64,000 nt of DNA from an uncultured Bizionia sp. GTDB lineage: Bacteria; Bacteroidota; Bacteroidia; Flavobacteriales; Flavobacteriaceae. Both the position numbers and the translations under genes were made by a program. The notes below the pieces were generated by a model, which did not search any database, was not told the DNA's origin, and worked only from the letters and a program-made list of their open reading frames with translations. The stretch is from positions 62,001 to 126,000 of the forward strand of contig CANMCF010000005.1 in assembly GCA_947496215.1 (NCBI GenBank), given 5' to 3'. Positions 45,002 to 54,542 of the stretch are shown one piece after another (the stretch's first letter is position 1; every line of letters starts with the position of its first letter).

Positions 45002-45766
45002 TTAGTTGATGATGTCTCTTACGAATTGGCTTATTTTTCCTACGCCTTTTGTGGTTAGGTGTTTGATGAATGCACTACCTATTATGGCACCTTTGGCATA
45101 TTGGGTTGCTTGCGTAAAGGTTTCATTGTTGGAAATGCCAAATCCAATGATTTGAGGATTCTTTAAGTTCATATCTGCAATACGTTTGAAGTATTGAGTT
45201 TGTTCTTTTCCAAACCCGCTGTTACTGCCCGTTACACTTGCACTACTTACCATATATATGAATCCATTGGAAATGGAGTCTATGAAACGGATGCGTTCGA
45301 CCGAGGTTTGTGGGGTTATTAAAAAGACGTTTGTCAATCCATATTTTTCAAATGTTGTCTTGTATTGCTCGTTGTATACATCGACGGGCAAGTCGGGGAT
45401 GATCAAACCATCTATGCCTATGTCTTGGCATTTCTTGCAAAACGCTTCGACACCATATTGTAACATCGGATTGAAATATCCCATTATGATTAGAGGAATC
45501 TCAACGGTCTCCCTTATGTTTTCGAGTTGATTGAAAAGGAGATTGGTTGTCATTCCATTTTTAAGAGCCTGTGTCGAGCTTTCTTGAATGGTTGGGCCAT
45601 CTGCCAAGGGGTCACTGAATGGCAACCCTATCTCTATCATGTCTACCCCATTCTTTTCCAAGTCTTGAATAATGGTAACTGTGTCGTCAATGTCTGGATA
45701 GCCGGCAGAAAAATATATCGATAATAACTTTTTATCGCCTTGTAGTTTTTTGTTTATTCTATTCAT
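45002..45766 (-). CDS. trpA: Tryptophan synthase alpha chain
   Basis: A 254-residue TIM barrel that cleaves indole-3-glycerol phosphate to indole, passed to TrpB. The catalytic Glu and Asp are in DMIEIGLPFSDPLADGPTIQ; the phosphate loop is GFGISNNET; the flexible loop is SSASVTGSNSG. The ATG at 45766 (MNRINKKL) is chosen over 45781; it overlaps the preceding gene by eight bases. trpA is separated from trpB by two unrelated lipoprotein genes, which is the oddity of this operon. Confidence 0.96.
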   Translation of the reverse strand: MNRINKKLQGDKKLLSIYFSAGYPDIDDTVTIIQDLEKNGVDMIEIGLPFSDPLADGPTIQESSTQALKNGMTTNLLFNQLENIRETVEIPLIIMGYFNPMLQYGVEAFCKKCQDIGIDGLIIPDLPVDVYNEQYKTTFEKYGLTNVFLITPQTSVERIRFIDSISNGFIYMVSSASVTGSNSGFGKEQTQYFKRIADMNLKNPQIIGFGISNNETFTQATQYAKGAIIGSAFIKHLTTKGVGKISQFVRDIIN

Positions 45767-46850
45767 TTCTAAATTCTTCACTCAATTTTATAAATACGTT
45801 TTTTTGTGCCTTGCTAAGATTGTCTGCTGTAAATATTGAAATTCCCTCAGCTCCTTTTTCCTTTGTCAATCTAATGGCTCTTTCCAAGTCTTCAGGATCT
45901 TTCAAGGCAGGAGCGTACAATCCAGAATGGATAGGGAAGTCGACATCTTTTACCCCTTGTTCCGTGGCGAAACCAATCCAATTGACATTCTCGCGATAGA
46001 AGTTGTTGTAGACCATGGGGTAGGCGGCATCCAAATTCCAATCGTTCCAAGCTTGCCTAACCATTTGCCTCGACATTTCTGGAAAAGGGAATACTGCGGC
46101 AGTTATTTTTTGTTCCTTCTCGTGAGCAATGTCCACTATTTCGTTGACCAATGATGTTATTGCATTCAAGCGGTATTGTCTCCATTCGGTACTTAATTCC
46201 GGGTGTTTGAAATCTTGGGGATCTTTGTCGAAAATGGCTTTGAAACCAGCCCTGGCAATTGGATGGTAACCATAATCGTATTCAGGCATTTCGGTGGATT
46301 GAACAATGTTGTATTTAGGTTGGAGGTCTGCACCTAGAATGACGTCGACATAGCGAACATAGTCCAAATGGATGGAGGCCAAGCCTTTTATATGGGTTAG
46401 TTTTCTAACGTTGTTCTTTATATGTTCTCGAGCTTCTGGATGAAAGGGACTCAACCATTGGTAATAATCCACATAGGCTCGATACTCCAAGGAGTTTTTC
46501 CCAGCCCTGTTTACAGCATACCATTCGGGGTGTTTGTTGGCAATGGTATCGTTGGGACGGTTTAGAGTCCATATCCAAGCATGGATTCTTATGTTTTTTT
46601 CAGCCGCCAGAGGTACTAGTTTTGTTAAGAAGTCGGGGCTTCCTGCCACAAGAGCTTCTGTTATGCCCAAAGAATCGTACAAGGCTAACTTGGTTTCCCA
46701 TTTGGCTTTGTCAAAAGGACCACTTGCTTTTGTCCAAGTTGCGAATGTGAATGTGGTCTTTACGACTTTTGGGGTTGTTTCGGAATGTTTTTGTTCCTTG
46801 TTGCATGAAAGCAACGCCAAGGTCAATAGGTATATGATTACTCTGTTCAT
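45759..46850 (-). CDS. Putative glycoside hydrolase-like (GHL10/DUF187-type) lipoprotein
   Basis: A 363-residue lipoprotein (signal MNRVIIYLLTLALLSCNKE). The body looks like a TIM-barrel of the glycosyl-hydrolase-like GHL10 type: VVKTTFTFATWTKAS, KNIRIHAWIWTLNRPN, the HLDYVRYVD strand with acidic residues, TAAVFPFPEM, and AAYPMVYNNFY. These are the usual positions of active-site acids, but the reaction is unknown. It sits inside the trp operon: four bases of overlap (ATGA) with the CBM9-like gene and eight with trpA. It is probably exported and acts with the CBM9-like protein on glycans or glycosides. Confidence 0.8.
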   Translation of the reverse strand: MNRVIIYLLTLALLSCNKEQKHSETTPKVVKTTFTFATWTKASGPFDKAKWETKLALYDSLGITEALVAGSPDFLTKLVPLAAEKNIRIHAWIWTLNRPNDTIANKHPEWYAVNRAGKNSLEYRAYVDYYQWLSPFHPEAREHIKNNVRKLTHIKGLASIHLDYVRYVDVILGADLQPKYNIVQSTEMPEYDYGYHPIARAGFKAIFDKDPQDFKHPELSTEWRQYRLNAITSLVNEIVDIAHEKEQKITAAVFPFPEMSRQMVRQAWNDWNLDAAYPMVYNNFYRENVNWIGFATEQGVKDVDFPIHSGLYAPALKDPEDLERAIRLTKEKGAEGISIFTADNLSKAQKNVFIKLSEEFRNE

Positions 46851-47944
46851 AATGTTTTTAATGTCCCTTCGTTGTTTATGAAATGAATGCGATTTTTGTC
46901 TTTGTTTTCAATGCTGAACTCAAAACCAACATTTGTTTTGTAAAATGTGGCTTGTTTCGTTTTTCCCTCAGAAAAGGAGACATCGATGATTTGGGTATGA
47001 CCATATTCGTTATCCAGAACATGCTTTAAATCCCCATACCTAGTTTTTCTAAACAAGGCATAAAGAATTTGCTTGTCAAGTAAGTCTTCGTCTTCAATGA
47101 AGGCGATGTCCTTGGAGGATGATGCTTCTGTGAATTGTAAATAGCCCCATTTTTCTGGCTCATGCATATTTATGACGTTTTGGCTGCTCCAAACCCAATT
47201 GTATTCCCTCAGGTATTTGTCATTTTCTTTTTTACGATCGTATCTATTGTTTTCAATGTCATGGTCCCATTGTACGCGAGAAAAATTAAGGCGCCATTGT
47301 TCGCCTTCCTTAGGAATGCCTTTTGGTCCTTTCCTAAGTCTTGTAAGCGGTTTTAGCGGAATGGCCATTTCTATTGTCCAAAGGGAGTCCAAGTCCGTAG
47401 GGTTGTTTAAGGTGCCGTGAATTTTTACGGCAGTTTTCAATTCATCCAAATTCCATTCGAAGTTGGCTTTTCCTCCAACGCGATATGGTTTGTCCAAAAA
47501 TAAATCCCAAACGGTATTCAAGGCATTTATTTCGATCTCTCCATAGCCTGTTCCTGCTCCAGAAGGATCGATGAAGACCTCGAAGTCATTGTTGTAGTAT
47601 ATGATGGTATCCCTTTGCTTCAAGTTTCCCCATATGTGAGGTTCTTTCAATTCTGAATACACATATAGGTAACTATCATCCCAAAGCATTTTCACCTTTG
47701 TGTCGAATTTAGGTGTTTTTTCACCTTCTATGTCTATGAAGTCATCCGTATATGAGGCCAAATCCCAAGATGGTTCCATACTATTCCCATCAATGATCAA
47801 TGGTTCTTTTACTTTGGATACGATGTAGTTCTTTGGAGTCACGATGTCTACAGAAACATCCACAGATAGGATGGAATCGCTTTCTTTCTTGTTTGCGCAA
47901 GAGAAATAAAAAAGCAGTATTGATAGAATGGCTAGCTGTTTCAT
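46847..47944 (-). CDS. CBM9-like carbohydrate-binding family lipoprotein
   Basis: A 365-residue protein. The ATG at 47944 gives a lipoprotein signal (KQLAILSILLFYFSCANK); the frame is open further but overlaps trpB. A CBM9-type domain covers about 50-270: IDGNSMEPSWDLASYT at its start, VKMLWDDSYLYVYSELKEPHIWG, the NNDFEVFIDPSG edge strand, AMEIAIP-type segment (WTIEMAIPLKPL), and GEQWRLNFSRVQWD. Such domains bind carbohydrate ends and occur in uncharacterised outer-membrane proteins. One base separates it from trpB and it overlaps the GHL10-like gene by four. Function with the barrel protein is inferred only. Confidence 0.85.
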   Translation of the reverse strand: MKQLAILSILLFYFSCANKKESDSILSVDVSVDIVTPKNYIVSKVKEPLIIDGNSMEPSWDLASYTDDFIDIEGEKTPKFDTKVKMLWDDSYLYVYSELKEPHIWGNLKQRDTIIYYNNDFEVFIDPSGAGTGYGEIEINALNTVWDLFLDKPYRVGGKANFEWNLDELKTAVKIHGTLNNPTDLDSLWTIEMAIPLKPLTRLRKGPKGIPKEGEQWRLNFSRVQWDHDIENNRYDRKKENDKYLREYNWVWSSQNVINMHEPEKWGYLQFTEASSSKDIAFIEDEDLLDKQILYALFRKTRYGDLKHVLDNEYGHTQIIDVSFSEGKTKQATFYKTNVGFEFSIENKDKNRIHFINNEGTLKTL

Positions 47945-47945
47945 C

Positions 47946-49133
47946 TTATAATTTGAAATAGTCGATGTAGTTTTGCAAATCTTTGTCTCCACGACCTGAT
48001 AGATTAATTATCACGACATCGTCTGGTTTGAAATTCTTTTGATCCAAAATGGCCAATGAGTGTGATGTTTCGATTGCAGGTATTATACCTTCCAATTTGC
48101 TCAACCTCAAACCGGCAGTCATTGCTTCATCATCTGTAATGGATATGAATTCGGCTCGACCTGTTTTGTACAAGTGCGCATGCATTGGTCCAACACCAGG
48201 GTAATCCAATCCTGCCGAAATGGAATAGGGTTCTGTTATTTGTCCGTCATTGGTTTGCATCAACAAAGTCTTACTGCCGTGAATTATTCCTTCTTTGCCC
48301 AATACCGAAGTGGCAGCACTCTCTCCGGAATGAATTCCTTTTCCGGCAGCTTCTACTGCAATCAACTTTACATTGGTGTCTTCCAAGTAATGATAAAAGG
48401 CACCGGCAGCATTACTACCTCCACCTACGCAAGCTACCACATAATCCGGAGTTGAGCGTCCTTCCTTCTCTTGCAATTGCCATTGCATTTCTTCTGAGAC
48501 CACAGCTTGAAAGCGAGCAACCATATCTGGGTAGGGATGAGGGCCAACGACGCTTCCAATGATGTAGTGGGTGTCTACGGGGTTGTTTATCCAATCTCTT
48601 ATGGCTTCGTTCGTTGCATCCTTCAGTGTGCGACTTCCCGACAATGCAGGAACAACCTTTGCGCCTAGCATTTTCATTCTGGCAACATTTGGCGCTTGTC
48701 TTGCTATGTCGATCTCTCCCATGTATACGATACATTCCATTCCCATCAAGGCGCATACAGTAGCTGTAGCCACACCGTGTTGACCTGCTCCTGTTTCCGC
48801 GATGATTCGTTTTTTTCCAAGACGTTGGGCCATCAGGATTTGTCCAATGGTATTGTTCACCTTGTGAGCTCCTGTATGGTTAAGGTCTTCGCGTTTCAGG
48901 TAGATCTTGGTGTTGTATTTTTCGCTTAGGCGCTTTGCAAGGTATAAGGGGGATGGTCTACCCACGTAATCTTTCAGTAATTGATCAAACTCTTCCTTAA
49001 AAGAAGGATCTGCCATCACCTTTAAGTAATTTTGACGTAGTTCCTCTACATTCGGGTAAAGCATTTCTGGAATGTATGCACCTCCAAACTCTCCGTAATA
49101 GCCTTTTTCATCAATGTTATACTCCATAACCAT
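47946..49133 (-). CDS. trpB: Tryptophan synthase beta chain
   Basis: A 395-residue PLP enzyme joining indole and serine. The PLP lysine is K91 in HTGAHKVNN; the phosphate-binding loop is [10 protein letters not shown]; the catalytic Glu is in [16 protein letters not shown] at the N terminus marks the TrpB1 type. Two starts (49133 and 49127, MEYNIDEKG) are possible; either overlaps the end of trpF by 11-17 bases. Directly followed by the inserted lipoprotein genes. Confidence 0.97.
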
Positions 49134-49752
49134 GTCTTATCAATTGGTATTTGAAATCTTTTAATTTTTTTAAATCTTTAAAGCCTGATGCCGTTTCGAA
49201 CTTGCTATTCAAATCCAGGGTGCAACATAAATCGGATTCTGGCCTTTTAAGGAACAATAGTAGGGCATCCAATTCATTTGGACCAATGCCTCCACTTAGG
49301 AAATAAGATTTGTTTGAATTGTATTTTTTCAACACGTTCCAATTGAAGGTATATCCATTGCCACCTGGTTCTTTCCCTTTGGTATCAAACAGGTAATAGT
49401 TGCAAACATCCTCATATGGTTCCAAAACCTTGAAGTCAAACTGGTTCTTGATAGAAAATACCTTGATCACTATCATGTCATGATCTTGAAGCTTTGCACA
49501 TAACTCAGGTGTTTCCTGTCCGTGCAATTGCACACCTTGCAAATCGTATTTTTCAATTTTGTCCAGTATGTAATCGAGTTTTGCATTGACGAATACACCA
49601 ATCTTTTTTATGCCTTCTGGCAAGTTTGGCATTTCGACATTGAAATAACGAGGTGATTTCTCATAGAAAATGAACCCCAAGTAATCAGGTTGCAATTCAG
49701 CAACATCCAAGATGTTGTTTTCGAGTTTCATTCCGCAGATTTTTAGTTTCAT
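49117..49752 (-). CDS. trpF: Phosphoribosylanthranilate isomerase
   Basis: A 211-residue TIM barrel that converts PRA to CdRP. The catalytic Cys and Asp of the family are in KLKICGM and [19 protein letters not shown] and SGGIGPNEL (phosphate loop) are present. It overlaps trpB and follows trpC by 52 bases, with a separate gene for each instead of a TrpCF fusion. Confidence 0.95.
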
Positions 49753-49804
49753 CTGTTTGTGTTTTTTGTTTTGATTTCCTGCCCAAGCAGAAATTATAAA
49801 TTGT

Positions 49805-50587
49805 CTATTTCAATTGTTCTATGAACTGTTTGGCACTTTCACCGGCATTGTCCGTTTTCATGAAGTTTTCACCTATCAAGAAGCCTTTGTATCCATAAGC
49901 CTTCAATTCTCTTATGGCTTCAACACTACTGATGCCGCTTTCGGATACCTTCATAAAATCATCAGGTATCAATGTACTCAACGTTTTGCTGGTTTCTAGG
50001 CTAACATCGAATGTTTTCAAGTTTCTATTGTTTACTCCCAGCATATCCAAACTTGGCATTATGGACTTTTGCAATTCCTCTTCATTGTGAACTTCCAACA
50101 GGACATCCAAATGTAGTTGCTTCGCAAATTCTGAAAATTGTTTTATTTCGGACTTGCTCAAAATAGCAGCAATCAATAAAATAACATCAGCTCCGTAAGC
50201 CTTGGCTTCCAATATTTGATATTCGTCTATTATGAATTCCTTTCTAAGCAAAGGTAAATCACAACTAGCTCTGGCAGTTAGTAGATCGTCCAATGAACCA
50301 CCGAAATATTTAGTGTCCGTCAAGACGGACATACCGGATACTCCAGCATCTTCATAACCTTTCGCGACATCGAAAACATTGAAGTCCTGATTTATGATGG
50401 CCTTGGAAGGCGAACGTCTCTTATGTTCTGCAATAATTCCCGAATGGCTTCCTCTCAGTTGTTTTGCCAATGAAACCGTTTCTCTTTCAAATAGAATGGA
50501 TTGTTCCAATTGTGTCACTGGAATCAATGTTTTTCGTAAAGCGACTTCTTTGCGTTTATCTATTACTATACGCTCTAATATGTCCAT
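49805..50587 (-). CDS. trpC: Indole-3-glycerol phosphate synthase
   Basis: A 260-residue TIM barrel that closes the indole ring from CdRP. Conserved blocks: IAEHKRRSPSKA (catalytic Lys), SVLTDTKYFGGSLDDL, LLRKEFIIDEYQI (catalytic Lys), ADVILLIAA, LLEVHNEEE, GVNNRNLKTF and VSESGISS. Normal length, third enzyme of the operon between trpD and trpF. Confidence 0.97.
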   Translation of the reverse strand: MDILERIVIDKRKEVALRKTLIPVTQLEQSILFERETVSLAKQLRGSHSGIIAEHKRRSPSKAIINQDFNVFDVAKGYEDAGVSGMSVLTDTKYFGGSLDDLLTARASCDLPLLRKEFIIDEYQILEAKAYGADVILLIAAILSKSEIKQFSEFAKQLHLDVLLEVHNEEELQKSIMPSLDMLGVNNRNLKTFDVSLETSKTLSTLIPDDFMKVSESGISSVEAIRELKAYGYKGFLIGENFMKTDNAGESAKQFIEQLK

Positions 50588-50617
50588 TGTTAATTTTGAC
50601 TCTTTTTTATGGTTTTG

Positions 50618-51610
50618 TTATCTGCTCAATTCTATCAGTTTCTTCAAACAGGTTCTTGCTTCCCCTTTCAGCAAGGATTCTTTGGCTAGTTGAAACCCTT
50701 CTTTATGATCTATTTGCTTGGCTGTGGCAATTGCCAAACCTGCATTGGCACAAACGACGTTGTTTTGTACTTCGGTACCAAGCCCATTTATGATGTCTGT
50801 AAATATCCTAGCAGAGGATTCCACTGTGTCTCCACCAAAAATGTCATCTTGTTCAACTTGATTTACATCAAGATCCTTGGGTGTCAACATCGTTTCGGAT
50901 GTGTTTGAAATGATCTTGGTATTTCCTGTCAATGAAATTTCATCATAGCCATCCAAGGCGTGGACAATGCTATAGTTCTTATCTGTATTTTGATATAGGT
51001 AGCTATATAGCCTCTGTAATTCCAGATTGAAAACTCCCACCATTTGGTTTTTTGGAAAAGATGGATTGACCATTGGGCCCAACATGTTGAAAAAGGTCTT
51101 AACACCCAATTCTTTCCTTATGGGAGCTACGTTTTTCATGGCTGGGTGAAATAAGGGAGCATGTAATACACAGATACCTGCTTCGTCTATGGCCTTTTGC
51201 AAGAAACTCTCATCATTGGTGAATTTAATCCCCAAATGTTCCATTACGTTGGATGAACCACAGGCGGAGGATACACCATAATTACCATGTTTAGCTACCT
51301 TTACTCCAGCTCCAGCCGTAACGAAGGAGGATAGAGTGGAAATGTTGAAAGTGTCTTTTCCGTCACCTCCAGTACCACATAGATCTATTGCATTGAAACC
51401 TGAAAGGTCCACGGGAATGCATAATTCCAACAAGGCATCCCTAAAACCTTGAAGCTCTTCTAGTGTGATGCTTCGCATCATGAAAACGGTGAGGAAAGAA
51501 GCGATTTGGCTTTGGTTGTATTCACCTCTGGAAATATTGACCAAAACACTTTTTGCTTCTTGGCTGCATATGTTTTCTTGATTTATGAGTCTATTTAATA
51601 AGTGTTTCAT
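50618..51610 (-). CDS. trpD: Anthranilate phosphoribosyltransferase
   Basis: A 330-residue class III phosphoribosyltransferase that couples anthranilate to PRPP. The PRPP loop CGTGGDGKDTFNIST and the KHGNYGVSSACGSSNVMEHLG block are present, as is the HPAMKNVAPIRKELG anthranilate-site region. The ATG at 51610 (MKHLLNRL) is chosen; a longer frame adds 13 poorly conserved residues. The gap to trpG is 81 bases. Confidence 0.96.
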   Translation of the reverse strand: MKHLLNRLINQENICSQEAKSVLVNISRGEYNQSQIASFLTVFMMRSITLEELQGFRDALLELCIPVDLSGFNAIDLCGTGGDGKDTFNISTLSSFVTAGAGVKVAKHGNYGVSSACGSSNVMEHLGIKFTNDESFLQKAIDEAGICVLHAPLFHPAMKNVAPIRKELGVKTFFNMLGPMVNPSFPKNQMVGVFNLELQRLYSYLYQNTDKNYSIVHALDGYDEISLTGNTKIISNTSETMLTPKDLDVNQVEQDDIFGGDTVESSARIFTDIINGLGTEVQNNVVCANAGLAIATAKQIDHKEGFQLAKESLLKGEARTCLKKLIELSR

Positions 51611-51691
51611 GAAAAACTTGTTTTTCATTTCCACAAAAGTGGAAATCATAATGTTTTATTTTATCTTATCTAGCCTTGTGTGTCGTATTGA

Positions 51692-52258
51692 CTACAAATT
51701 TATCCAATTTTCTAAAATTTGTTTTCCGTTTGGAGTCAATACGGATTCCGGATGGTATTGTACCCCTCTAACATCATAGACCTTGTGACGTAGGGACATG
51801 ACTTGTCCATTGCAATCGAAAGAGGTTGCTTCTAATTGGTCTGGTAAATTTGCATCTACAACCCAAGAATGATAACGCCCTACCTCAATTGTTTTCTCTA
51901 GTCCTTTAAAAAGTTGTTCATCGTCTACAGTGATGTCAACTTCAGTTGCAATGCCATGGAAAACGGTATCCAAATTTATTAATGTACCCCCAAAGACTTC
52001 CCCAATGGCTTGTTGTCCCAAACAAACGCCAAGTATGCTTTTTGTTGCGGCATATTGCTTTATTATGGATTTCAACAACCCAGCCTCATCAGGGATTCCT
52101 GGGCCTGGAGACAGTACTATCTTTTCGAAGGCGTCTACTTCTTCCAAGGTTAGTTTATCGTTTCGCTTTACTGTGACTTCACAATCGAGGTCTTCTAAAT
52201 AATGTACCAAGTTGTACGTAAAACTGTCGTAATTATCTATAACTAATACTTTTTTCAT
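51692..52258 (-). CDS. trpG: Anthranilate synthase component II (glutamine amidotransferase)
   Basis: A 188-residue class I amidotransferase that supplies ammonia to TrpE. The oxyanion region SPGPGIPDEAG, the nucleophile C79 in GVCLGQQAIG and the HPE dyad in YHPESVLTP are intact. It is not fused to trpD. In some bacteria this subunit also serves PabB; no pab gene is present here. Confidence 0.96.
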   Translation of the reverse strand: MKKVLVIDNYDSFTYNLVHYLEDLDCEVTVKRNDKLTLEEVDAFEKIVLSPGPGIPDEAGLLKSIIKQYAATKSILGVCLGQQAIGEVFGGTLINLDTVFHGIATEVDITVDDEQLFKGLEKTIEVGRYHSWVVDANLPDQLEATSFDCNGQVMSLRHKVYDVRGVQYHPESVLTPNGKQILENWINL

Positions 52259-52299: not shown

Positions 52300-53697
52300 T
52301 TAAATGTCTTTGGCTAACTCAATGGCTTTTGTAAGTGCACCTAGTTTGTTGTACACTTCTTGGAGCTCGTTGTCAGGGTTAGATCTTGATACCAATCCTG
52401 CCCCAGCTTGCCAATGCAATTCGTGATTCTTACTTAAGAATGTCCTAATCATGATGGCATGGTTGTAATTGCCATCAAAATCCATGAAGCCAATGGCTCC
52501 TCCATAAAAAGCTCGACTGGTTTTCTCATACCTTTCGATGAGTTGCATGGCTTTATGTTTTGGTGCACCACTCAAGGTTCCTGCAGGAAAGGTGTCAGCC
52601 ACGACTTCCATGGTTGGTGTGTTGTCGTGCACCTTTCCAGTAACTTTGCTTACCAAGTGTATGACATGGGAGAAAAACTGGGTTTCCCTATAGGTTTGTA
52701 CCTTCACTTGACTTCCGTGCCTACTCAAATCGTTTCTTGCCAAATCCACCAACATGACATGTTCTGCATTTTCTTTTTCGTCTTGTGCTAGTTGTTTTGC
52801 CAGTTCTGCATCCTTTTCGTCATTTCCCGTACGTCTGAATGTTCCTGCTATGGGATGTATTTCGGCTATGCCATCGGAAACGACCAATTGGGCCTCTGGT
52901 GAACTTCCGAAAATCTTGAAATCGCCATAGTCGAAATAGAAGAGGTAAGGGGATGGGTTTATGCTACGTAAGGCTCTATATACATTGAACTCGTCTCCTT
53001 TGAATCGTTGTGAGAACTTCTTTGACAATACCAATTGGAAAACATCACCTCTGGCACAATGTTTCTTTGCCAACTCCACATGTGCTTTGTATTCGTCGTC
53101 CGTTAGATTGGAGGATATTTCAGAGTCTGTGGCAAAATTGTAGGAAGCATAGTTCTTCGATTTTATGAGATGTAGGACATCTTCTATGTTGCTGGCATTG
53201 TCGTTGAAGCAATGTGCAAAGATGTAAGCTTCGTTTTTAAAGTGGTTTATTGCTATTATGTTTTGGTATACGGCATAGTAAATGTCTGGTATGTCAAGTG
53301 AATTTGGTTTTTTTGAGATTTCAACATCTTCAAAGTATTTTACGGCATCATAGGCGGTATAACCAAAAATACCATTGTTTATGAATTTGAACTTTTCTTC
53401 TGAAGCTACTTTGAATCGTTTCGTGAACTTATGAATTCTTTCGATTACATTCTTGGTTCTGTTCGATAAGGAACTACCATCGGGAAATGTTTCCGTTATG
53501 GTATCTTGGGTAACCTTGATGGATGCGATGGGATTGAAGCATATATAGGAGAAACTGTTGTCGTTTGCGTGGTAATCGCTACTTTCCAAAAGGATGCTAT
53601 TCGGAAACTTGTCACGTATTTTCAAGTAGATGCTAACCGGAGTTATCGTATCTGCCAATATTTTTTTGTAATGTGTGTATAGACTAAAGGTCTTCAT
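52300..53697 (-). CDS. trpE: Anthranilate synthase component I
   Basis: A 465-residue chorismate-using enzyme, the first committed step of Trp synthesis. N-terminal SILLESSDY carries the LLES element that binds tryptophan for feedback inhibition. The C-terminal chorismate-binding domain has DVFQLVLSKKFSQ, IHPIAGTFRRTGNDEKDAELA, EHVMLVDLARNDL, FPAGTLSGAPKHKAM and YGGAIGFMDFDG. It is the first structural gene of trpEGDCFB(x2)A and lies downstream of the leader peptide and attenuator. Confidence 0.97.
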   Translation of the reverse strand: MKTFSLYTHYKKILADTITPVSIYLKIRDKFPNSILLESSDYHANDNSFSYICFNPIASIKVTQDTITETFPDGSSLSNRTKNVIERIHKFTKRFKVASEEKFKFINNGIFGYTAYDAVKYFEDVEISKKPNSLDIPDIYYAVYQNIIAINHFKNEAYIFAHCFNDNASNIEDVLHLIKSKNYASYNFATDSEISSNLTDDEYKAHVELAKKHCARGDVFQLVLSKKFSQRFKGDEFNVYRALRSINPSPYLFYFDYGDFKIFGSSPEAQLVVSDGIAEIHPIAGTFRRTGNDEKDAELAKQLAQDEKENAEHVMLVDLARNDLSRHGSQVKVQTYRETQFFSHVIHLVSKVTGKVHDNTPTMEVVADTFPAGTLSGAPKHKAMQLIERYEKTSRAFYGGAIGFMDFDGNYNHAIMIRTFLSKNHELHWQAGAGLVSRSNPDNELQEVYNKLGALTKAIELAKDI

Positions 53698-53743: not shown

Positions 53744-53773
53744 AAAAGGCTTGTCGTGAATGACAAGCCTTTT
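53744..53773 (-). terminator. trp attenuator terminator
   Basis: A 12-bp stem (arms 53744-53755 and 53762-53773) with a 6-nt loop and a run of six U in the minus-strand RNA, located between the leader peptide and trpE. The loop plus the start of the 3' arm (53754-53760) is complementary over seven bases to the end of the leader ORF (53808-53814), which offers a competing pairing. Confidence 0.88.
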
Positions 53774-53803
53774 GTATTTTTAATTTAAAATATACCTATA
53801 GGT

Positions 53804-53866
53804 TTAGTTCACGAATTTGTTTTTTCGAGAGCTCCACCACCAAGTATTATTTAAAGTTGTATTCAT
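53804..53866 (-). CDS. trpL: trp operon leader peptide
   Basis: A 20-residue ORF (MNTTLNNTWWWSSRKNKFVN) with three consecutive UGG codons at 53834-53842. It lies 18 bases downstream of a canonical promoter box and 31 bases before the attenuator terminator, ahead of trpE. Three Trp in 20 residues is the standard signature of a leader peptide whose translation senses charged tRNA-Trp. With low tryptophan the ribosome would stall at these codons and leave the RNA at 53808-53814 free to pair with the terminator loop; with ample tryptophan the ribosome would cover it and the terminator would form. The mechanism is inferred from sequence; the coding elements are directly visible. Confidence 0.9.
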   Translation of the reverse strand: MNTTLNNTWWWSSRKNKFVN

Positions 53867-53883
53867 AAATTTATTATAAAAAT

Positions 53884-53914
53884 CAAATATATAAATGAAA
53901 TTTTAGTTTTCAAA
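53884..53914 (-). promoter_or_regulatory. trp operon promoter (-33 TTTG, -7 TATATTTG)
   Basis: TATATTTG at 53884-53891 and TTTG at 53911-53914, spacer 19 bases, on the minus strand: a consensus Bacteroidota housekeeping promoter. It would start the transcript near 53877, about 11 bases before the leader ATG. Confidence 0.8.
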
Positions 53915-53975: not shown

Positions 53976-54542
53976 TTAGAAAGACAATTCTACGCTTAAA
54001 TCAAATTCATCTGAAATCACTTTGTCTTTCAAGTTGTCATAGAAACTAGAAGAACCATATTTTACATTATGTTTTGCTCTATTAACTTTCAATTTGGCAG
54101 TTGCAGCTTTATCGGCAACCTCCATCTCGAAACTTATGGTACTTGTAAGACCTTTAATGGTCATTTCTCCAGTAACATCATATTTTCCATCTTTTCCTTT
54201 TACAGATGTCGTCTTGAAGGAAGCAGTTGGATGATTCTTCACATCAAAAAATTCTGGGGACTTTAAATGGCCATCCAAGTTGGCTTTGTTTTCACCGTCC
54301 AAATCCGTTGTGTTAATAGAGGTCATGTCTATTGTGAAATTGGCGCTTACCAATTTTTTGCCCTCAAAAGACAATGTTCCTTCTTTCAAGCCGATGGTAC
54401 CCTCGTGTTTTCCTGTTAATTTGTGTCCAGTCCAAGTGATCTTGCTATCTTTTACCTTCACATCCTTTTTAATGATCGATGTCGTAAAAGAGACTAGTGC
54501 CAATGCAAATACTATTACCAATGTGTTTTTAATTGTTCTCAT
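53976..54542 (-). CDS. YceI-family protein (periplasmic)
   Basis: A 188-residue YceI lipocalin-like protein with an ordinary signal peptide (cleavage near SFTTSIIKK), not a lipoprotein. Motifs: ITWTGHKLTGKHEGTI, HLKSPEFFDVKNHPTASF and GEMTIKGLTSTISF, the same order as in the paralog at 18062-18721. It lies 25 bases downstream of a MarR-type regulator on the same strand, so its expression is likely controlled by it. The ligand, perhaps a quinone or isoprenoid, is not known. Confidence 0.92.
   Translation of the reverse strand: MRTIKNTLVIVFALALVSFTTSIIKKDVKVKDSKITWTGHKLTGKHEGTIGLKEGTLSFEGKKLVSANFTIDMTSINTTDLDGENKANLDGHLKSPEFFDVKNHPTASFKTTSVKGKDGKYDVTGEMTIKGLTSTISFEMEVADKAATAKLKVNRAKHNVKYGSSSFYDNLKDKVISDEFDLSVELSF

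Follow-up and report, generated by a model that had tools for sequence, protein, structure and literature searches.

The trp attenuator of E. coli is built from a leader peptide with tandem Trp codons, a protective hairpin, a terminator and a strand that is freed by the stalled ribosome, and its antiterminator takes the 5' arm of the terminator (2:3 pairing).

For Bacteroidetes, Weinberg et al. published in 2010 the family Bacteroid-trp (Rfam RF01692) as a probable cis-regulatory RNA (PMC2864571). Passages on Flavobacterium psychrophilum describe Bacteroid-Trp RNA as conserved upstream of the trp operon and liken it to the E. coli attenuator (PMC6414381), and a 2021 transcriptome paper on the same species reports strong indications of attenuation by leader peptides ahead of operons for amino-acid biosynthesis (PMC9723704). 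The main-text passages on Bacteroid-trp contain no loop-directed antiterminator scheme; supplements and additional files may describe one.

Here we analysed a stretch of 64,000 nucleotides from an uncultured Bizionia sp., referred to as the window, which carries such a leader on its minus strand. The RNA family and its likely role are known, and the mapped loop-directed antiterminator is the modest new part. The family has been listed since 2010 with its antiterminator unstated in the main-text passages, and a covarying pairing supplies a testable mechanism. The RNA is probably a switch that lets the bacterium make tryptophan only when tryptophan is short, and going by its relatives this switch is probably thrown by the end of the leader gene capturing the terminator loop.

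Anatomy of the leader and its operon

The window element matches RF01692 across the full model (positions 1-131) with 63.9 bits, above the curated cut-off of 49 (E 1.5e-5, search of the window), and is the only match in its own genome. The existence of the element and its likely role are thus already in print, and it is not a new kind of finding: it belongs to a family from 2010, and the comparison with E. coli was already drawn for F. psychrophilum. The Rfam consensus pairs only the hairpin around the Trp codons, has no antiterminator marked and ends, unpaired, inside the terminator 5' arm.

The Bacteroidota promoter consensus is TTTG / TAnnTTTG. On the minus strand of the window a -33-like TTTG (53911..53914) and a -7-like TATATTTG (53884..53891) are separated by 19 bases, in the order and spacing first described for this locus (53914-53884). 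TAnnTTTG was found at most 60 nt upstream of the leader start in 141 of 146 matches, compared to 6% of mononucleotide-shuffled upstream regions, and a TTG precedes this second promoter element by 13-25 nt in 117/146 (window included; a count without a control for the TTG part). Regarding the 11-base leader of the initial annotation, this length hangs on an assumed transcription start; the distance from TATATTTG to the ATG is 17 nt (53891-53864). In 35/146 matches (e.g. L006, L034, L102) the leader start codon follows TAnnTTTG within 7 nt, and in these cases the mRNA of the leader peptide may have no 5' leader, or almost none. In F. psychrophilum leaderless mRNAs are given as only 5.5% of those examined (PMC9723704), and the abstract of a paper describes Bacteroidota mRNAs as being without Shine-Dalgarno sequences.

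The leader peptide ORF (53804..53866, minus strand; ATG at 53866, stop TAA at 53806-53804) encodes MNTTLNNTWWWSSRKNKFVN in 20 codons and is rich in codons for the end product of the operon, with three consecutive UGG codons (WWW, 53834..53842) as the putative stall site. All 146 parsed RF01692 matches contain an ORF that starts with ATG, GTG or TTG, has no more than 40 codons and includes two or more Trp codons. According to the minimum free energy fold, the Trp codons are enclosed in a hairpin (53784..53855), a region that also forms a hairpin in the Rfam consensus, and part of it is an apical stem (53806-53833) that sequesters the antiterminator strand. This hairpin, which can play the part of 1:2, was overlooked in the first description, to which the design looked simpler than that of E. 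coli; with the hairpin it is not simpler. Between the leader and the first structural gene lies an intrinsic terminator (53744..53773, minus strand) with 12 pairs and a 6-base loop (5' arm 53773-53762, loop 53761-53756, 3' arm 53755-53744) and six U after the last C. ORF, UGG codons and terminator before trpE agree with the sequence as originally annotated. The 22-base core of the terminator is found a single time in the own genome when up to 2 mismatches are tolerated, and the folding z-score of the leader RNA is -7.3.

The leader is located upstream of tryptophan biosynthesis genes, all oriented in one direction on the minus strand. The first structural gene, trpE (52300..53697, Pfam Anth_synt_I_N and Chorismate_bind), is followed by trpG, trpD, trpC, trpF, trpB, two non-trp genes (CBM9_1, GHL10) and trpA (45002..52258), giving the operon order trpEGDCFB-(2 genes)-A by Pfam and gene order; trpG, trpD and trpB were assigned via general Pfam families plus gene order. 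The two non-trp genes (45759-47992; a GHL10 glycosyl-hydrolase-like and a CBM9-like gene) are located between trpB and trpA with overlapping ends. In F. psychrophilum likely co-transcription of the protease gene FP0506 with the trp genes has been reported (PMC6414381). Directly upstream of the leader, on the same strand, lies a YceI-like gene (53976-54542), and by eye a similar C-terminus seems to precede the leader in several genomes.

Distribution in Bacteroidota

We searched genomes of the genus, the family and the phylum for RF01692 matches (E ≤0.001), with the window's family (f1) taken as Flavobacteriaceae and f2, f3, f11 and f12 denoting other families of the same phylum. Matches were obtained in 3/3 genomes of the genus, 109/149 of the family (one per genus) and 42/395 of the phylum, as well as in 15/41 (f11), 26/40 (f12), 4/41 (f3) and 6/40 (f2); these counts overlap in part, and the family, phylum, f11 and f3 searches used stricter filters, by which weak matches were lost. 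A TrpE-like protein (E ≤1e-20) was found in 144 of the 149 family genomes, some of which have only a distant paralogue. Thirty-five family genomes have a TrpE match and no Rfam match; 24 of these were taken and 11 left out (8 weak matches, 2 fragments, 1 contig edge). A scan found a terminator in 22 of the 24 trpE upstream regions, the exceptions being L202 and L211, the latter with a terminator containing a G-U pair by eye. The same layout is present in 18/24, so 109/149 understates the spread. No such leader was seen at L202 or upstream of the paralogue in the own genome, L221 (G000:C8:85444-86805, 58% identical); the upstream region of this second TrpE-like gene has no terminator by scan and no Trp leader by eye.

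The alignment and the gene-context counts comprise 191 matches, window included. Of these, 45 extra matches from f11, f12, f3 and f2 were also used in part for the 5'-arm and single-case tests and stand outside the counts for ORFs (146), helices (145), promoters (146) and switching (144). L033, whose contig ends before a complete terminator, was left out of the helix counts, and L071, with an irregular terminator set by hand, out of the shuffles and the switching count; L135, L137, L156, L189 and L193 are second copies of the same genomic places and were left out.

A trp gene follows downstream on the same strand in 188/191 matches, while none was found for L033, L056 and L187. The nearest trp match among the 188 is trpE in 142 cases, trpB in 42 and trpD in 4. 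In f11/f12 it is trpB instead of trpE in 41/41 (L112, L117, L136, L142, L149-L155, L157-L186), and by eye many of these leaders read Y-W-W(-W) followed by R. For the f3 leaders L147, L148, L188 and L190 the nearest match is trpD. L187, L188 and L190 have a different start after the Trp codons in common, CACAAAGGAUAAC, followed by a partly complementary stretch.

Proposed pairing of the leader end with the terminator loop

The putative antiterminator strand (element 2, UCGUGAA, 53808..53814, minus strand) adjoins the leader stop codon and is exactly complementary to UUCACGA (53754..53760), which comprises 5 loop bases and the first 2 bases of the terminator 3' arm. This seven-base complementarity was already pointed out in the initial annotation. 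TGGTGGTGG occurs once in the window, both strands taken together, compared to a mean of 0.28 in 50 dinucleotide-Markov sequences of 64 kb, and an equally good helix between leader and loop/3' arm arose in 9/2000 dinucleotide shuffles of the window leader.

Across the RF01692 matches, 136/145 have a helix of at least 6 bp in which the leader strand begins 14-22 nt past the last Trp codon and the partner is the loop/start of the 3' arm. Typically GUCGUGA or UCGUGAA faces UCACGAC or UUCACGA, and the leader element, usually UCGUGA, lies beside or over the leader stop codon. The stop codon follows the last Trp codon by 6 to 39 nt (145 matches), with the segment starting -10 to +11 nt from the stop (136 matches); in L016 and L034 the stop is too far upstream to cover element 2 well. 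The mean score of the loop/3'-arm helix is 17.0 versus 11.2 for shuffled leaders, and per genome on average 5.7% of shuffles equal the real leader. In 9/145 matches the helix is absent from the expected place (L107, L109, L117, L141, L143, L144, L146, L147, L148). A re-examination of single cases (L107, L109, L141, L143, L144, L147, L148 and eight further f2/f3 matches) gave no clear alternative for L107, L143/L194, L188, L190 and L196, and a partial one for L109.

The alignment used for covariation (191 matches, 189 distinct rows) was not fitted to the pairing. At the six core pairs, 89-98% of its cells are standard, and changes on both sides occur at 7/9 pairs, in 93 cells. At pair 5, A-U replaces G-C in 32 rows, chiefly in f11/f12; by this replacement UGA of the usual leader becomes UAA and the target UCA becomes UUA, UUG or CUG; pair 7 is changed on both sides in 39 rows, and pairs 0, 1, 4, 6 and 8 in 1 to 7 rows each. 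The covariation at two pairs may in large part reflect one event at the base of a clade. When the partner columns were slid by 1-3 positions, 12-54% were paired versus 81%. In a block permutation, which does not keep the phylogeny, none of 2000 trials came up to the 6.80 pairs of 8 that the native rows average (6.48 as the mean of the permutations, 6.58 at most). Since the letters are identical in most rows, the margin is narrow.

The strongest evidence for the pairing is its rewriting in single genera, including regions without Rfam match. A helix of at least 5 bp starting at most 13 nt from the leader stop is present in 18 of the 22 non-Rfam regions with a terminator and absent near the stop in L206, L209, L210 and L216. 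Taken singly, 10 of the 22 helices reach p<0.05 and 2 p<0.01, and the one in L204 does not exceed chance (p 0.53). Rewritten helices are GGAUUCAG with CUGAAUCC in L203, ACCGGAU with AUCCGGU in L217, GCGAUGA with UCAUCGC in L208, GCGAG with CUCGC in L197 and UCGCGA with UCGCGA in L198, to which GUCGCAAU with AUUGCGAC in L083 and GUUGGUUC with GAACCGAC in L191 (0/400 shuffles) can be added. These rows were chosen after inspection and may not all stand for separate events; L197 and L204 look related. The initial annotation had named conservation in relatives as the check on its reading: Trp codons and pairing are both conserved, and the pairing of the leader-ORF end with the terminator loop keeps its position and covaries.

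Predicted folding of the stalled and released leader

For the analysis of switching we folded the exposed RNA, with the leading edge of the ribosome set at the A-site base plus 13 and a limited number of 3'-arm bases outside the polymerase. In the window leader at 37 C, a stall at W1-W3 gives an antiterminator probability of 0.78-0.96 with 2-6 3'-arm bases exposed, while the free leader or a ribosome at the stop gives a terminator probability of 0.82-0.99 with 4-6 bases exposed. With at least 8 bases exposed the terminator wins in every state, and at 25 C a stall at W1 is outcompeted with as few as 6 bases out (0.15 versus 0.84). The pairing exposed by a stall and supported by covariation thus excludes the terminator in silico only as long as few 3'-arm bases are out. 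The decision must therefore come earlier, and the mechanism depends on kinetics. RNA polymerase holds about 14 nt of RNA inside; on this assumption about 5 bases of the 3' arm would be out when the polymerase is on the U-tract, which fits the range in which switching occurs.

The same test was applied to 144 matches, with the ribosome placed at the penultimate Trp codon of the run and 5 3'-arm bases exposed. The stall brings the terminator probability below 0.5 in 143/144 matches (33% with shuffled leaders). With the ribosome at the stop it stays above 0.5 in 140/144, and the two states differ by at least 0.3 in 142/144. When the leader is untranslated, the terminator is favoured in only 97/144 matches, and stalled, stop and untranslated states all behave as expected in only 94/144.

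Proposed mechanism and alternatives

From the observed anatomy, a pairing that is conserved and covaries, and the switching in silico, we put the probability at roughly 0.86 that the element, a member of Bacteroid-trp (RF01692), is a ribosome-mediated attenuator of transcription that uses a loop-directed antiterminator ahead of trpEGDCFB-(2 genes)-A. Both attenuation through a Trp leader peptide, as first proposed for the locus, and the pairing put forward with it are well supported. When charged tRNA-Trp is ample, the ribosome would pass WWW, reach the stop codon and cover element 2 (53814-53808); the terminator would then form and transcription end before trpE. Under a shortage of charged tRNA-Trp, the ribosome would stall on WWW and open the hairpin that holds element 2, leaving this strand uncovered to pair with the terminator loop and the first 3'-arm bases as these emerge from RNA polymerase. 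The new helix would hold the loop bases and leave no linker, so that the terminator stem could not close in time and the polymerase would enter trpE. The pairing of element 2 must win kinetically, as the full terminator is the more stable structure. A pseudoknot keeping both helices is unlikely on steric grounds, since no linker would be left between the loop helix and the 3' arm. The stall, its dependence on tryptophan, the coupling of transcription to translation and real read-through are what we infer here from sequence and folding.

A quite improbable alternative is a classic attenuator of the E. coli type, in which a 2:3 antiterminator takes the terminator 5' arm and the complementarity to the loop is secondary. 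Such an arrangement gains from the 41 matches of f11/f12, where a stretch directly behind element 2 scores 11.1 for pairing with the 5' arm, versus 10.0 in shuffles (z 3.9; for example GCAGACUU with AGGUCUGU), but 41% of single shuffles equal the real pairing there. Two f3 genomes of one genus pair GGCAGC with GUUGCC of the 5' arm (p 0.007 and 0.025) and one of another genus UGUGGCAA with UUGCCAUA (p 0.03), whereas L188 and L190 of the same family show no 5'-arm pairing (p 0.56 and 0.79). The best helix takes the 5' arm plus the loop in 3/5 f3 matches and is missing in the other 2 (five sequences from three genera). In the stalled fold of the window itself, CCU with AGG and UAA with UUG extend the helix into the 5' arm. 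In the window's family, however, pairing of a leader strand with the 5' arm stays at shuffle level (9.75 versus 10.13 in 144 matches, nearly all of that family; z -1.5 in 136 matches of the family), while pairing with loop/3' arm lies above it (17.0 versus 11.2), in agreement with the initial remark that there is no separate 2:3 hairpin. A 2:3 helix was therefore rejected for this family and is a possible addition in f11/f12 and f3. Going by the f11/f12 enrichment and the f3 helices, evolution may have moved the target along the terminator.

It is less probable still that the leader governs translation or Rho access as a pause or structural element, with a constitutive terminator. Rfam does list a cis-regulatory leader without a marked antiterminator, but the terminator before trpE is matched at the leader stop codon by a complementary strand that covaries with it, and folding with a stalled ribosome removes this terminator far more often than in shuffled leaders (143/144 versus 33%). 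We give the least credence of all to the idea that the complementarity of UCGUGA and UCACGA is inherited sequence similarity without function. The same two hexamers do recur in most matches, and at two pairs the changes on both sides cluster in f11/f12; against this, leaders with differing letters keep the pairing near the stop (L083, L191, L197, L198, L203, L208, L217), and none of the 2000 block permutations reached the native value.

Beyond the window's family, we lean towards a reading of the loop-directed attenuator in which trp attenuators across Bacteroidota share an antiterminator at the leader stop that would capture the loop before the hairpin nucleates, with a target that slid along the terminator from lineage to lineage and takes in the loop and the 3' arm, both arms, or the 5' arm and the loop. 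The stop codon often lies inside the strand of element 2 (UCG-UGA with UCACGA, UCG-UAA with UUACGA), so that in this phylum-wide reading the sensing ribosome itself would decide on access. If the proposed mechanism holds, transcription and translation would be closely coupled in Bacteroidota, at least on the trp leader, and the leader would offer a simple reporter for the question of coupling.

Comparison with known systems

The window leader has the start codon, the Trp codons, the enclosing hairpin and the terminator 5' arm in common with Bacteroid-trp RNA. The Rfam model is without antiterminator and stops in the terminator 5' arm, whereas the window has a mapped pairing. The F. psychrophilum leader is likewise a Bacteroid-Trp RNA upstream of the trp operon and has been likened to E. 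coli; in contrast to the window, a pairing scheme is absent from the main-text passages (PMC6414381, PMC9723704).

With the trp attenuator of E. coli the window leader shares the tandem Trp codons, the protective hairpin, the terminator and a strand that a stall would free. The two differ in the target of this strand, which is the 5' arm in E. coli and the loop together with the start of the 3' arm in the window's family, and in the position of the leader stop codon, which in the window's family often lies inside the antiterminator helix.
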